Origin: Lachnospiraceae bacterium
GTDB lineage: Bacteria > Bacillota > Clostridia > Lachnospirales > Lachnospiraceae
Direction: 5' to 3'
Length of the DNA: 64,000 nt
Assembly: GCA_017450065.1 (NCBI GenBank)
Contig: JAFSYI010000014.1
Span: 62,001-126,000 of the forward strand
Position numbers and translations under genes: made by a program. The notes beneath the pieces are model-generated. The model ran no database searches. It was given only the letters and a program-made list of their open reading frames with translations, and was not told where the DNA came from. Numbering within the stretch: position 1 is the stretch's first letter; each line of letters begins with the position of its first letter. Shown here one piece after another: positions 25,896 through 30,826 of this stretch.

Positions 25896-27356
25896 ATGGG
25901 CGGAATATTTGGAGTAGTATCTAAAAAGGACTGTGTACTTGATGTTTTTTTCGGGACAGATTATCATTCACACCTGGGAACGAGGAGAGCGGGAATGGCA
26001 ATGTATGGGGACCGTGGATTTGACAGAGCCATCCATAATATACAGAATTCACCGTTTCGTACCAAGTTTGAAAGAGATGTAACAGATTTCAACGGAAATA
26101 TCGGTGTCGGATGTATATCCGATTACGAACCTCAGCCGCTTCTTATACAGTCTCATCTGGGAAGCTATGCGATCACGACTGTCTGTAAGATAAATAATCT
26201 GGATGAGCTTGTAGCCGAAGCATATAATGTGGGACGGACGCAGTTCCTTGAAATGAGCGGAGGCAATATTAATCCCACGGAGCTGGTGGCAACACTCATC
26301 AATCAGAAGGACACGATAGCGGAAGGAATACAGTATGCGCTTGAAAGAGTAGACGGGTCGCTCACCCTGCTTGTGATGACGGATAAAGGGATATATGCCG
26401 GACGCGATCTCTACGGCCGGACGCCCCTTATGATAGGGAAAAAGGAAGATGAGGCATACTGTGTCGCATTTGAGAGCTTTTCATATATCAACCTCGGATA
26501 TAAGGATGAGAAGGAACTTGGTCCCGGAGAGATAGTTTACATAACTGCGGACGGGTACGAAACTCTCAGACCGGCGCAGGATATAATGAAGATATGTACC
26601 TTCCTGTGGATATACTACGGCTATCCCACATCCACATATGAGGGGGTAAATGTTGAAGCCATGAGATATAACTGCGGCAAGGCACTTGCCATAAGGGACA
26701 AGAGCTCATGGGCAGATGATGTAAGACCGGATCTTGTAGCGGGAGTTCCGGATTCGGGTACCGCACATGCCATAGGATATGCGAATGAATCGGGAATACC
26801 TTTTTCGCGTCCGTTTATAAAATATACTCCCACATGGCCGCGTTCATTCATGCCGACCGACCAGAACCAGAGAAATCTGATCGCCAGGATGAAGCTTATT
26901 CCGGTTGACCGTCTGATAAGAGGTAAATCACTGCTTCTTATTGACGATTCTATCGTAAGAGGAACCCAGCTCCGTGAGACTACCGAGTTCCTTTATAACA
27001 GCGGAGCCGGGGAGGTTCATATAAGACCTGCGTGTCCGCCGCTCCTTCATGGATGCAGGTTCCTTAATTTTTCCCGTTCGAATTCGGAATATGATCTTAT
27101 AACGCGCCGGGTCATCCGGGAAAGAGAGGGCGAGAATGTATCTGATGAGATCCTGAAAGATTATGCGGATCCCGACAGCACGAATTATAAGGAAATGCTT
27201 GATGAGATAAAGAAGCAGCTTAATTTCACATCCCTGCGTTTCCACCGCCTTGACGATATGGTGGAATCGGTGGGACTTCCGAAGGAGAAGCTGTGTACAT
27301 ACTGTTGGGACAAACAGGGAGACTGTCATAAGTGTGCATCATGCACCGGATGCTGA
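25896..27356 (+). CDS. PurF-type amidophosphoribosyltransferase homologue without catalytic Cys
   Basis: A 486-residue protein with the two-domain layout of glutamine PRPP amidotransferase. The N-terminal Ntn-glutaminase domain opens MGGIFGV instead of MCGIFGV, so the nucleophilic cysteine is Gly2. The phosphoribosyltransferase domain is intact around residues 345-358 (LLIDDSIVRGTQL). The C-terminus ends in a Cys cluster (CTYCWDKQGDCHKCASCTGC) that could hold Fe-S or zinc. It may use ammonia or a separate amidotransferase, or have another role; no purine genes adjoin it. GGAGG precedes the ATG. Confidence 0.88.
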   Translation: MGGIFGVVSKKDCVLDVFFGTDYHSHLGTRRAGMAMYGDRGFDRAIHNIQNSPFRTKFERDVTDFNGNIGVGCISDYEPQPLLIQSHLGSYAITTVCKINNLDELVAEAYNVGRTQFLEMSGGNINPTELVATLINQKDTIAEGIQYALERVDGSLTLLVMTDKGIYAGRDLYGRTPLMIGKKEDEAYCVAFESFSYINLGYKDEKELGPGEIVYITADGYETLRPAQDIMKICTFLWIYYGYPTSTYEGVNVEAMRYNCGKALAIRDKSSWADDVRPDLVAGVPDSGTAHAIGYANESGIPFSRPFIKYTPTWPRSFMPTDQNQRNLIARMKLIPVDRLIRGKSLLLIDDSIVRGTQLRETTEFLYNSGAGEVHIRPACPPLLHGCRFLNFSRSNSEYDLITRRVIREREGENVSDEILKDYADPDSTNYKEMLDEIKKQLNFTSLRFHRLDDMVESVGLPKEKLCTYCWDKQGDCHKCASCTGC

Positions 27357-27474: not shown

Positions 27475-27861
27475 ATGGGTATATTGTATGATGCAAGAAA
27501 ACTGAAGGCGCTGGAATTCTTAAATGATCTGTGTGAATATGCAGGCAAGGGAAGTGATTTCACGCAGGAACTGTGGACCGAATTCCTGAATGATGATGAG
27601 CTGTACAGGGAATTCGTTTATTATGCCGACAATCATACTTTTCTTGATGATATGAAGATAAGCGGATATTCAATGTCGGATATGTATGTCTGGCAGATGG
27701 ACCGTTATAATATCGTACGCGAGCTGGGCAAGAACCCGGCCGCGTGCAACAAGGAGACTCTGGTGCTGAATGCATTCCGTGAGATGGCAAATATGAAGAG
27801 GGATCCTGCTACATACGTAAAACGCATAGAATCGGGAAAGGGTAATGACCGTTTGTCTTAA
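27475..27861 (+). CDS. Hypothetical protein
   Basis: A 128-residue soluble, acidic, mostly helical protein (LEFLNDLCEYAGKGSDF, MSDMYVWQMDRYN). GAAGG lies about 7 bp before ATG 27475; an upstream start in the same frame at 27439 has no ribosome site. Nothing in its sequence suggests a known family to me. It ends just before the long gene-free region with the candidate RNA. Confidence 0.65.
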   Translation: MGILYDARKLKALEFLNDLCEYAGKGSDFTQELWTEFLNDDELYREFVYYADNHTFLDDMKISGYSMSDMYVWQMDRYNIVRELGKNPAACNKETLVLNAFREMANMKRDPATYVKRIESGKGNDRLS

Positions 27862-27977
27862 TTGTAGCAACAGAATGTATTATACGTATTGTTTGGGAAA
27901 TGTATAAACAACAGACAAATAATACAATAATTTAGCAAAAATATACAGCAAAATTATAAAAAATACTGAAAATACTG

Positions 27978-28009
27978 TTGACATAACACAAAACATGTGT
28001 TAATATAAT
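27978..28009 (+). promoter_or_regulatory. Promoter with operator palindrome for the candidate RNA
   Basis: TTGACA (27978-27983) is followed by TAATAT at 17 bp (28001-28006) or TATAAT at 20 bp (28004-28009). A perfect inverted repeat TAACACA-5-TGTGTTA (27984-28002) fills the spacer exactly, the usual place for a repressor operator. The 110 bp upstream (27862-27977) are very AT-rich and hold no gene. Confidence 0.65.
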
Positions 28010-28012
28010 TTC

Positions 28013-28347
28013 AACACCAAGATAAAAGCCTCATCAGAGGTACAGTACTTGGTTGAAGATAAATCAGTCTGATAAAGGAGGTACGGTCCAAAGGATAGGT
28101 TAGTTTAAGGCATAAGCCTTTGCATTCGGAATTATCGCAGGTCTAATGTGAATCGGATATGAAAATTGGAAAACCACCATATAGGGTGAAGATGATCACA
28201 GCTGAAATCAGACATAAACGATAAGGAAGAAGAAGTCCGGCGTACTTACCCGAACGTTATCGGGAACGAAATGGGAAGAGAGGTATATTCCATTGATAAG
28301 CAATCTTTAAGAGACCACGGTGAGGATAAAAAAAGCCGTGGTCTCTT
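28013..28347 (+). ncRNA. Candidate structured non-coding RNA of about 335 nt
   Basis: The stretch has a promoter, no plausible reading frame and a strong terminal hairpin. Near the 5' end TTCAA-CA-CCAAG (28010-28021) pairs with CTTGGTTGAA (28048-28057) around an inner CCTC-ATCA-GAGG stem. Further on there is AAGGC-ATAA-GCCTT (28107-28120). A Shine-Dalgarno-like AAAGGAGGT (28075-28083) has no start codon behind it. The nearest plus-strand gene is about 760 bp away, so this is not an obvious leader. I could not match it to RNase P, tmRNA, SRP RNA, 6S RNA or a riboswitch. Confidence 0.55.
28309..28347 (+). terminator. 3' hairpin of the candidate RNA
   Basis: AAGAGACCACGG and CCGTGGTCTCTT form a perfect 12-bp stem with a 15-nt A-rich loop. 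The T-tract after it is weak (TTGCTGTTT). It may act with the next terminator at 28370. Confidence 0.7.
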
Positions 28348-28369
28348 GCTGTTTGAGGTCATACAAAAC

Positions 28370-28401
28370 AAAACCCCGGAAGCCGTGGGCTCCGGGGTTT
28401 T
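28370..28401. terminator. Bidirectional terminator between the RNA and mscL
   Basis: AAAACCCCGGA (28370-28380) and TCCGGGGTTTT (28391-28401) form an 11-bp stem with T-runs on both strands, so it can end the plus-strand RNA and the mscL transcript. Confidence 0.85.
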
Positions 28402-28429
28402 ATGTAAAAGGATATCCGTATCTTAAACA

Positions 28430-28867
28430 TCAGGCATCAAGATCTGCCGTACAGCAGGGACACTTGGTTGCCTTGATGTTGATCTCGGACTGGCATTTGG
28501 GACAGATCTTTGTTGTGGGATCTGCAGCAGCTTCTTCTTTCTTTTTAAGGTTGGCAGCCTTCTCTACGGCACCGTTTATTGCCTTGAGCATGCAGAACAG
28601 TACAAGAGCGATAATAAGGAAGTTGATCACTGCGGAAAGAAAACTGCCGTAATCGAAGGCAACACCGTTAATAACGAACTGGCCGCCTATCTTGACGCCG
28701 TCTTCGGAATTTCCGCCGCATATAAGCGCTATCAGCGGATTTATAAACGAATCGGTGAGAGAGCTTACTATGTTACCGAATGCTGCACCGATGATAACAC
28801 CGATCGCCATATCCATAACATTACCCTTTAATGCAAACTCCTTGAATTCTTCAAAAAACTTTTTCAT
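28430..28867 (-). CDS. mscL: Large-conductance mechanosensitive channel with C-terminal zinc ribbon
   Basis: A 145-residue protein. The MscL core has the amphipathic N-terminus (MKKFFEEFKEFALKGN), TM1 with VMDMAIGVIIGAAFG, and TM2 (about 75-97). The channel opens under membrane tension to release solutes in osmotic down-shock. After the usual C-terminal helix, residues 122-139 form a zinc ribbon (CPKC...CPCC), which standard MscL lacks. AGAGGTAAGG precedes the ATG. Confidence 0.95.
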   Translation of the reverse strand: MKKFFEEFKEFALKGNVMDMAIGVIIGAAFGNIVSSLTDSFINPLIALICGGNSEDGVKIGGQFVINGVAFDYGSFLSAVINFLIIALVLFCMLKAINGAVEKAANLKKKEEAAADPTTKICPKCQSEINIKATKCPCCTADLDA

Positions 28868-29110: not shown

Positions 29111-30826
29111 ATGAAATTTTTGAAAAATGTTAGTGTTAGGATCAAGCTGTTGATACTTGTGGTACCGCTTTCTCTGGCTCTGATTGTCGCTTGTATTGTG
29201 ATGGGTGTTGAAATGTCCGGTACATCCGAAGAAGTGACGGGTATATATTATGATACCCTGTTTAAAGCTTCGGAAGCATTTATAAGCGCGGACAGGGATT
29301 TTTATCAGGCACGTGTTTCCCAGACTGCGAAGAACCTGAGTAAAACGGATGCCGATTATAAGGCTAATCAGGAGGATTTCCAGGAGAATATGCAGCAGGC
29401 TTATGACGGAGTACATGAGGGCGTGACGATCGCGTCGGCTGTTCCTTCGCTGTATAACGAGGTTCTGGCCGGTTCGAGTTCAAGTATTGCGTCTCTGGTG
29501 AGCGTGTTTGACGAGCATTACGCCAATGCACTGCAGCAGGGTACCAACGGAAATGATGTTAATTATGCGGCAGAATTCGATCTTGCAAGAGAAGCACTCG
29601 ATGAGATGACAATCATTACGGAGCAGTGGGCTGTAGAAGAGCATGAAGTGCTTCAGAAGAGTATAACAACCAAGATCGTGATCCTTTCGGTGATATTCGG
29701 TATACTTATTTTATTACTTCTATATATTGCCATTGTCATTATAAAGGAAATAACCCAGGGAGTTAATTCGGCTACTTCCAATCTTAACCAGCTCGCGGCA
29801 GGTAAGCTTGGCATAAAGCTTCCGGATGAGAAGAAGCTTGGCAATGATGAAATCGGTCAGATGCAGAAGGCTACCAGCCAGCTGACGCTTAAGCTTCGCG
29901 ATATAATGAGCAGAAGTAATGAGATGGCAAGGGATCTTTCCAGTGCGGGAAGCGATCTTGCACTGTCATCGGATCAGGCTTCACAGGCTTCCGGACAGGT
30001 TACGATAGCTGTAGACGAAATCAGCCAGGGCGCTGTATCACAGGCGGAGAGCGTTGAACATGCAGCCGGAAATACCAACGATATAGGAAACAATATTGAA
30101 GTAATAGCAACCAATGTTGAGCAGCTGGACGGATATGCAGAGAGCATGAAGGTTACCTGTGATGAGGCAATGGATGCTCTTAACAAGCTGCTTGATCAGA
30201 GCAGGGATGTTCAGGAGTCTGTACGAAACATCGGTCAGACAATTGATTCGACCAATGAATCGGCAAACGGCATACATGGTTTCGTAACTGCCATCACTTC
30301 AATTGCCAGCCAGACGAATCTGCTGTCACTGAATGCTTCGATAGAGGCTGCAAGAGCAGGAGAAGCAGGACGCGGGTTCGCGGTTGTTGCAGAAGAGATC
30401 GCGGCACTTGCAGAGCAGTCGAACCAGAGTGCCCAGGAGATAGGACGTATCGTAGACCAGCTTATGTATGATGCATCGGCATCGGTCGATGTTATGGCCA
30501 AGCTGAATGAGAGCTTCGAGAACCAGTCGATCCAGATGGAAGCGACGAGAGACAACATGGAATCCATGGCCAGAGGCGTAATAGCCGTAGCGGAGAGCGC
30601 AGAGGCTATAGCCTCCAAGATCGAAGGCCTTACGGGAGCGAAGGATACTCTGGTGGGAATAGTCAGCGATCTGTCGGCAATATCGGAAGAGAATGCAGCT
30701 TCAACAGAAGAAACCAATGCATCCATGCAGGAGCTTAATGCTACATTCAGTATAATCAATGATTCCGCATCAAACCTTCAGGAGCTTGCAAAAGAGCTTC
30801 AGGAGCTTATAAGCTATTTCGGATAA
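29111..30826 (+). CDS. Methyl-accepting chemotaxis protein
   Basis: A 571-residue receptor. TM1 is at about 14-36, an extracellular four-helix-type sensor of about 150 residues follows, TM2 is at about 190-212, then HAMP and the long cytoplasmic coiled coil. The signalling tip is recognisable ([22 protein letters not shown], then [10 protein letters not shown]). It would control CheA through CheW, neither of which is in the window. The ligand is unknown. Confidence 0.95.

Follow-up and report, generated by a model that had tools for sequence, protein, structure and literature searches.

CsrB/CsrC and RsmY/RsmZ are protein-sponge RNAs with imperfect repeats of a short motif in varying copy number, the core motif of CsrA being ANGGA. 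The bar minigenes of phage lambda consist of a Shine-Dalgarno sequence (SD), an AUG, one or two sense codons and a stop codon, and dual-function small RNAs (sRNAs) hold a small SD-led open reading frame (ORF). Here we describe an RNA gene that can be compared with all of these, located at about positions 28013 to 28352 (plus strand) of a stretch of 64,000 nucleotides from a Lachnospiraceae bacterium (contig JAFSYI010000014.1, positions 62,001 to 126,000), in the following called the window. A first-pass annotation of the window had proposed a free-standing structured RNA of unknown class under repressor control at this place, an interpretation that is partly supported by our analysis. Our best explanation, in which confidence and doubt are about evenly balanced, is that the window RNA is an autonomous RNA from an apparently undescribed Lachnospiraceae family that would engage ribosomes through serial SD modules.

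Like CsrB and RsmZ the module RNAs are free-standing and repeat a short motif (two copies in the window RNA and up to nine elsewhere), but CsrB and RsmZ present a GGA in hairpin loops, whereas the unit repeated here is an SD followed by GGUAYRGWCCA, a codon and a stop, and a micro-ORF usually comes last. The lambda bar minigenes are resembled by the AUG modules of two other loci (L174 and L212), and 12 of the 14 AUG modules known from other members consist of an SD, a start codon, one to three codons and a stop; unlike the bar minigenes, however, the module RNAs are chromosomal, their modules stand as arrays in one RNA and many of them have no start codon. As in dual-function sRNAs a small SD-led ORF is present, but its peptide is not conserved across the family and start-less SD modules are repeated. 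The window RNA is also, like 6S RNA, autonomous and a few hundred nucleotides long; 6S RNA (RF00013) did not match at the locus and the genome's own 6S match lies elsewhere (G000:C52).

With Rfam 15 at gathering scores no match was obtained in the window, and in the intergenic gap that holds the RNA the best match up to an E value of 10 (E 0.12) lay on the opposite strand and did not reach its gathering score. Other module loci were scanned as well, with nothing at gathering on the RNAs (one of these scans left out L229). No DNA match to the window RNA was found in phage records, and none in viral contigs by exact-pattern scans using one pattern each. Literature searches, several of them on related subjects and with subscription papers outside their scope, gave no recognised description of the RNA or its motif, and passages of two papers on the discovery of noncoding RNAs (PMC11109978 and PMC2864571) mention no such RNA.

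Shine-Dalgarno modules and their stop codons

The unit of the family consists of a purine run complementary to the anti-SD, the motif GGUAYRGWCCA, a codon in the start position, a few further codons and an in-frame stop. Two kinds can be distinguished: mini-ORFs beginning with AUG or UUG, and start-less modules with CCA, CCG or AAG in the start position. The window RNA contains one of each. Module 1 (28074..28108, plus strand) is start-less and comprises AAAGGAGGT (28074-28082), GGTACGGTCCA (28080-28090), AAG in the start position (28091-28093) and an in-frame TAA (28106-28108). The SD-like stretch without a start codon had already been pointed out in the first-pass annotation, and it does look meaningful, as one copy of a module that is found repeatedly in RNAs from this bacterial family. 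Module 2 (28278..28310, plus strand) has the SD GAGAGG (28278-28283), GGTATATTCCA (28282-28292) and the micro-ORF TTG ATA AGC AAT CTT TAA (28293-28310), and adjoins the terminator. The pattern GGTANNN[AT]CCA occurs at three places on either strand of the window, of which 28080 and 28282 follow a purine run and 36065 (minus strand) does not.

Homologues of the window RNA are present in eight genomes of the genus including its own (see below). Module 1 was found in the window, L002, L003 and L004 and is absent from L005-L008, while the 5-codon micro-ORF of module 2 is in register in all eight homologues (TTG, four codons, TAA or TAG), each time with GAGG ahead of it as judged by eye. The statement of the earlier annotation that the gap holds no open frame has to be corrected, since besides this micro-ORF there are two mechanically called ORFs of 51 (28271-28426) and 110 amino acids (28320-28652, antisense to mscL), which we take as chance. 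An AUG module is not found in the window RNA, its UUG frame of five codons being the only start-bearing one.

We compiled 109 distinct module copies, with start-position codons limited to a list made post hoc and with L180, L181, L229, L232 and L256 left out; the first listing of modules had used hand-chosen loci and included a few spurious matches. The start position is occupied by CCA, CCG or ACA in 53 copies, by UUG in 31, by AUG in 14 and by AAG in 11. Of the 53 copies with CCA, CCG or ACA, 42 reach an in-frame stop within three codons after the start position; the other two frames gave 7 and 2, and 1000 shuffles a mean of 14.6 and a maximum of 24 such in-frame stops. The AUG modules behave in the same way: 12 of 14 stop this early in frame, the counts for the other frames are 6 and 1, and the shuffles had a mean of 3.6 and a maximum of 11. 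The stop is kept although its codon varies, as seen in the eight homologues (TAA or TAG) and, by eye, in L215, L230 and L220, which have TAA, TGA and TAG, respectively. UUG modules differ, since an in-frame stop within three codons occurs in none of the 31 (7 and 13 for the other two frames); they have a longer frame and, wherever listed, form the last module of their RNA.

Pairing with the anti-SD is better than the mean of the module's own shuffles in 107 of the 109 copies. The mean energies are -11.0 kcal/mol for AAG, -11.4 for CCG, -10.7 for CCA, -9.0 for UUG and -7.6 for AUG modules, so that start-less modules on average pair better with the anti-SD than the modules beginning with UUG or AUG. 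From SD complementarity and the frame-linked stops of two module kinds we infer that ribosomes make use of the modules.

RNA B and the extent of the family

A complement search with the conserved 3' motif led to a second locus in seven of the eight carriers of the window RNA. In the window's own genome this RNA B lies at L150:1395-1910 (G000:C100:8314-8829, minus strand), is about 500 nucleotides long and combines a promoter-like site of its own with an extended conserved core and a hairpin terminator; none of 100 shuffles folded as stably (z -2.20). Both RNAs share the 3' stretch GAGAGGTANNNTCCATTG and, in some genomes, the 5' stretch AAGGAGGTACRGWCCA, and both have a lineage-specific conserved core ahead of the last module. 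Of 295 genomes searched, 11 gave long matches to RNA B; every one of them belongs to the genus, and G026, which the complement search had passed over, is among them. G000, G032, G021 and G036 carry the 5' module in both of their RNAs and G035, G023, G026 and G027 in neither, a co-presence that is suggestive but does not count as many independent events as the four carriers are two sister pairs. The search for RNA B also picked up seven more genomes with a match to the 5' module alone; two belong to the genus and the other five to different genera within the family.

Next to RNA B in its own genome, on the opposite strand, we found a Clostridiales-1 RNA (RF01699, 58.5 bits; L150:1131-1366), which is, like the module RNAs, a clostridial orphan RNA (PMC2864571). 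As it occupies a separate stretch of the other strand with no overlap, it is not the module RNA. In G032 a GA-cis RNA (RF02987, 63.4 bits; L153:73-159) lies about 1.3 kb from the motif of RNA B.

Tandem modules are found in other genera, nine of them in L174 and four in L177, and the number ranges from one to nine over the members. In the order, 161 of 392 genomes contain the simple motif GGTACRGWCCAHHRR. By itself this motif lacks specificity, because the reversed control also has many matches. A strict tandem pattern was matched in 25 of the 392 genomes and its reversed form in none; 23 of these belong to the 131 genomes of the own family (genera g26, g34, g37 and g219) and two (G057 and G099) to the 261 others, and the matches in these two do not resemble modules. 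Of 20 loci picked from the simple-motif list and read, 19 look like module RNAs and one (L229) looks coding.

The anatomy of the RNAs was surveyed at 54 loci, L178 having given no match. A promoter-like site within 620 nucleotides upstream of the first motif match was present in 52 of them under a lenient rule. A module with AUG or UUG was found in 44 loci, and in 42 the 3'-most module is of this kind. The ten loci without it under the strict rule are L173, L179, L215, L220, L221, L225, L226, L230, L231 and L253, and in six of these (L215, L220, L221, L225, L226 and L230) a TTG frame behind a variant SD can be seen by eye. A stem of at least nine pairs follows the last AUG or UUG module in 43 of the 44 loci (with a lenient and uncontrolled finder), although in L174 and L255 this 'stem' is flanked by additional modules and does not represent a terminator. 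The last start-bearing module is in most members placed just before the terminator.

These SD-led terminal frames, together with the interchange of GAT with GAC, of TTT with TTC and of the stop codons, would also be expected if the RNA were a micropeptide mRNA, with the terminal peptide as product and the rest as regulatory leader. The peptides of the UUG frames are MISNL (window), MITNQ, MTQSE, MTQSN, MAQSH and MITGN in the homologues of the window RNA, MGTEEQV and its kin in RNA B, and MDNEN, MDNEF, ..DEYSV and MGSxxRGGTS elsewhere. They differ between lineages, can be as short as five residues and, in the eight homologues, are much less conserved than the core, and we therefore consider this explanation rather unlikely. 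The terminal micro-ORFs of L246-L254 (genus g34), which encode MGSxxRGGTS and have a conserved C-terminus and a GC-rich stretch, seem better conserved than those of other genera.

Several observations weigh against the engagement of ribosomes by the modules. In the window RNA itself, the stop of module 1 is not reached until the fifth codon after AAG, and the AAG modules, to which it belongs, stop in 9 of 11 copies in frame 0 and equally in 9 of 11 in frame +1, so that no frame evidence comes from them. The TTAA after CCA modules stands mostly at a fixed distance (a third-codon stop in 39 of the 53 copies) and could be a sequence motif instead of a stop, and CCA or CCG cannot serve as ordinary start codons. 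The copies are related, were filtered for purines and were sorted by a codon list drawn up afterwards, all of which the shuffles leave uncorrected. The window's own genome fails the strict tandem pattern because its modules lie 202 nucleotides apart, and 12 of the 54 loci, including L174 with CCA as its last modules, have no start-bearing last module. Finally, the invariance of GG..CC among the 109 copies is to some extent a product of the search pattern, and SD function does not require so strict a motif, which suggests that something else binds it as well or instead.

Due to this strictness of the GGUAYRGWCCA core the main rival is a sponge RNA, the repeats of which would serve as binding sites for an RNA-binding protein or an sRNA partner, much as in CsrB and RsmZ; the likeness to an SD would then arise since such a partner normally binds translation start regions. 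The column counts (with the part imposed by the pattern), the copy number from one to nine and the occurrence as a promoter-bearing RNA gene in varied contexts are in line with this possibility, but it explains neither why the stops of AUG modules fall into one frame at differing distances nor why the last module is mostly start-bearing, and ANGGA is not constant among the 109 copies (seen by eye and uncounted). We regard a sponge as doubtful, though it deserves to be taken seriously.

Structure, promoter and neighbourhood of the window RNA

Judged from its sequence, the window RNA is a sigma-A-transcribed and intrinsically terminated RNA gene. It lies in an intergenic gap of 568 bp (27862-28429), and this gap, the consensus -35, the -10 and the 12-bp terminal stem are all present as first annotated. 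The promoter (27978..28006, plus strand) is of the extended -10 type, with TTGACA at 27978-27983, a 17-nucleotide spacer and a TG (27998-27999) preceding TAATAT (28001-28006), from which the 5' end of the predicted transcript at 28013 was inferred. TTGACA, the spacer length and the TG before the -10 are kept in all eight homologues. The spacer region also holds the inverted repeat TAACACA/AAACA/TGTGTTA (27984..28002, plus strand), a perfect 7-5-7 repeat in the window as had been described. Across the homologues the number of pairs out of seven is 7 in the window, 6 in three relatives and 3 in four, and as the palindrome is not conserved while the promoter is kept, the proposed repressor control through it is unsupported and the repeat is probably incidental.

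Folding of the 341-nucleotide transcript was matched in stability by none of 100 dinucleotide shuffles (z -3.34). At its 5' end an arm of ACCAAG/CUUGGU around CCUC/GAGG (28016..28053, plus strand) can be aligned by eye in four of the eight homologues, with one pair seen by eye as C-G in the window, U-G in L002 and U-A in L003 and L004. The conserved core, enclosed by helix P1 (28124..28237, plus strand), was defined by a covariance model and pair counts and is most conserved at 28140-28213; 55 of 74 core columns are invariant across the eight homologues, whereas in the adjacent purF-like gene only 6 of the 164 fourfold-degenerate sites are. When six stretches of the core were folded singly, one was clearly stabler than its shuffles (z -3.00), and the other five gave z values of -1.54 to 0.00. 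An extra hairpin CCCGA/TCGGG (28249..28264, plus strand) is aligned in the window and L002 only. The transcript ends with an intrinsic terminator (28309..28352, plus strand) in which a covarying stem of 12 bp (28309-28320/28336-28347) is followed by a weak T tail.

Compensatory changes in relatives, which had been suggested as a check, were found in part. On alignment A1 97.1% of the cells of the proposed helices are paired, compared to at most 51.7% when the helices are slid, and neither the covariation score nor the count of cells with changes on both sides was reached by any of 500 shuffles. Changes on both sides affect eight pairs (six of the 13 pairs of the aligned terminator stem, one in P1 and one in P5), a number reached by 28 of 500 shuffles. 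Further pair types are not raised, as 499 of 500 shuffles reach the observed number, and the two inner helices are invariant and therefore prove nothing. The terminator is thus well supported by covariation, and the predicted fold of the core has modest support. With its own promoter, a terminator and compensatory changes the RNA has the features of an autonomous structured sRNA, and the first-pass view of a free-standing structured RNA of unknown class agrees with the promoter, core and terminator shared by eight homologues, with the Rfam result and with the changing downstream gene.

A coding function of the core through an AUG frame of 9-21 codons (MKIGKPPYRVKMITAEIRHKR in the window) was rejected: no SD was seen before the AUG, the frame is shifted in L007, conservation runs upstream of the AUG, and sites vary at second about as often as at third positions (a reading that was not counted). 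In the survey of this frame a wrong ATG had been picked for L003 and L005. The reverse complement of a conserved core stretch, searched with up to two mismatches outside the RNA in the eight genomes, matched 19 sites compared to 15 for the reversed pattern. Three of these two-mismatch complements recur in two genomes each (G021/G036, G032/G023 and G035/G023), which may be targets or shared coding sequence. An ordinary lineage-specific base-pairing sRNA under repressor control, in which the modules would be coincidental, could have just such a strong promoter, terminator and highly conserved stretches; given a target search that is little above its control, a spacer palindrome that is not conserved and the recurrence of the modules in tandem in other genera, we consider it very improbable.

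Among 37 genomes from the genus, eight were identified by DNA search as having the RNA, and a covariance model of the core retrieved the same eight within the genus and, among 295 genomes of the order, the own genome alone as a convincing match. Most of the weak model matches outside the eight were read and rejected, since they look like chance, many of them within apparent protein-coding sequence. When the GTDB genomes were scanned for an exact pattern, seven records matched, all Lachnospiraceae by title, two of which name goat or sheep rumen.

In all eight genomes the RNA follows a purF-like gene, with a gene of 128 codons between them in seven; G026 has the 128-codon gene elsewhere. A PurF tree of 30 genomes places the carriers in one supported clade of 11 together with the non-carriers G003, G011 and G013 (its bootstrap had not settled). 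In G003 and G011 the locus is intact and the RNA absent, in G013 the contig ends within the purF-like gene, and a search of G017 gave no close purF match. For the PurF-like protein of the window (25896-27356) GATase_7 was the sole domain found, at its cutoff. A second PurF-like protein, mostly 30-39% identical, coexists in many genomes of the genus, and the window copy is perhaps a diverged paralogue. The protein of 128 amino acids (27475-27861) has no Pfam match, stands beside the purF-like gene in seven of the eight carriers and gives two matches each in 29 of the 37 genus genomes.

Downstream of the RNA a convergent mscL (28430-28867 in the window) follows in four of the eight homologues and other genes, partly identified by eye, in G035, G027, G023 and G026. 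A terminator-like hairpin on the minus strand (28368-28403) probably belongs to this mscL. The next plus-strand gene begins at 29111, 759 bp beyond 28352, in agreement with the distance of about 760 bp given earlier. These differing downstream genes argue against a cis-acting leader or attenuator, in which ribosomes on the modules would decide on terminator formation and downstream reading. The stop codon adjoining the terminator fits such a leader, as does an amidase-like gene (named by eye) that RNA B precedes in some genomes, but no conserved gene follows the window RNA on the same strand and the contexts of other members differ, and we judge this explanation improbable.

Possible implications for translation in Lachnospiraceae

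If the modules do engage ribosomes, we would expect them to bind 30S subunits or ribosomes. Translation of the start-bearing modules would yield peptides of 2 to about 20 residues, and the start-less modules, which on average pair better with the anti-SD, would retain 30S subunits that do not go on to initiate productively. In this view the RNA would be a trans-acting regulator that engages or titrates ribosomes, and the core may determine the timing of its action or its further binding partners. This predicts a 30S footprint at each GGUAYRGWCCA.

A recurrent Lachnospiraceae RNA family that matches no Rfam 15 family would matter by itself, and to our knowledge no riboregulator made of serial start-less ribosome-binding modules has been recognized. 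Lachnospiraceae are dominant anaerobes of gut and rumen. It is a tentative idea, and one that we would not yet call probable, that they encode RNA-borne 30S traps or arrays of minigenes by which translation is tuned globally, with many modules deliberately start-less (CCA, CCG or AAG placed at the P site and a stop soon after) and most of the RNAs closed by a translated micro-ORF. If it is true that the modules bind ribosomes without a start codon, this would represent an RNA means of controlling translation capacity.
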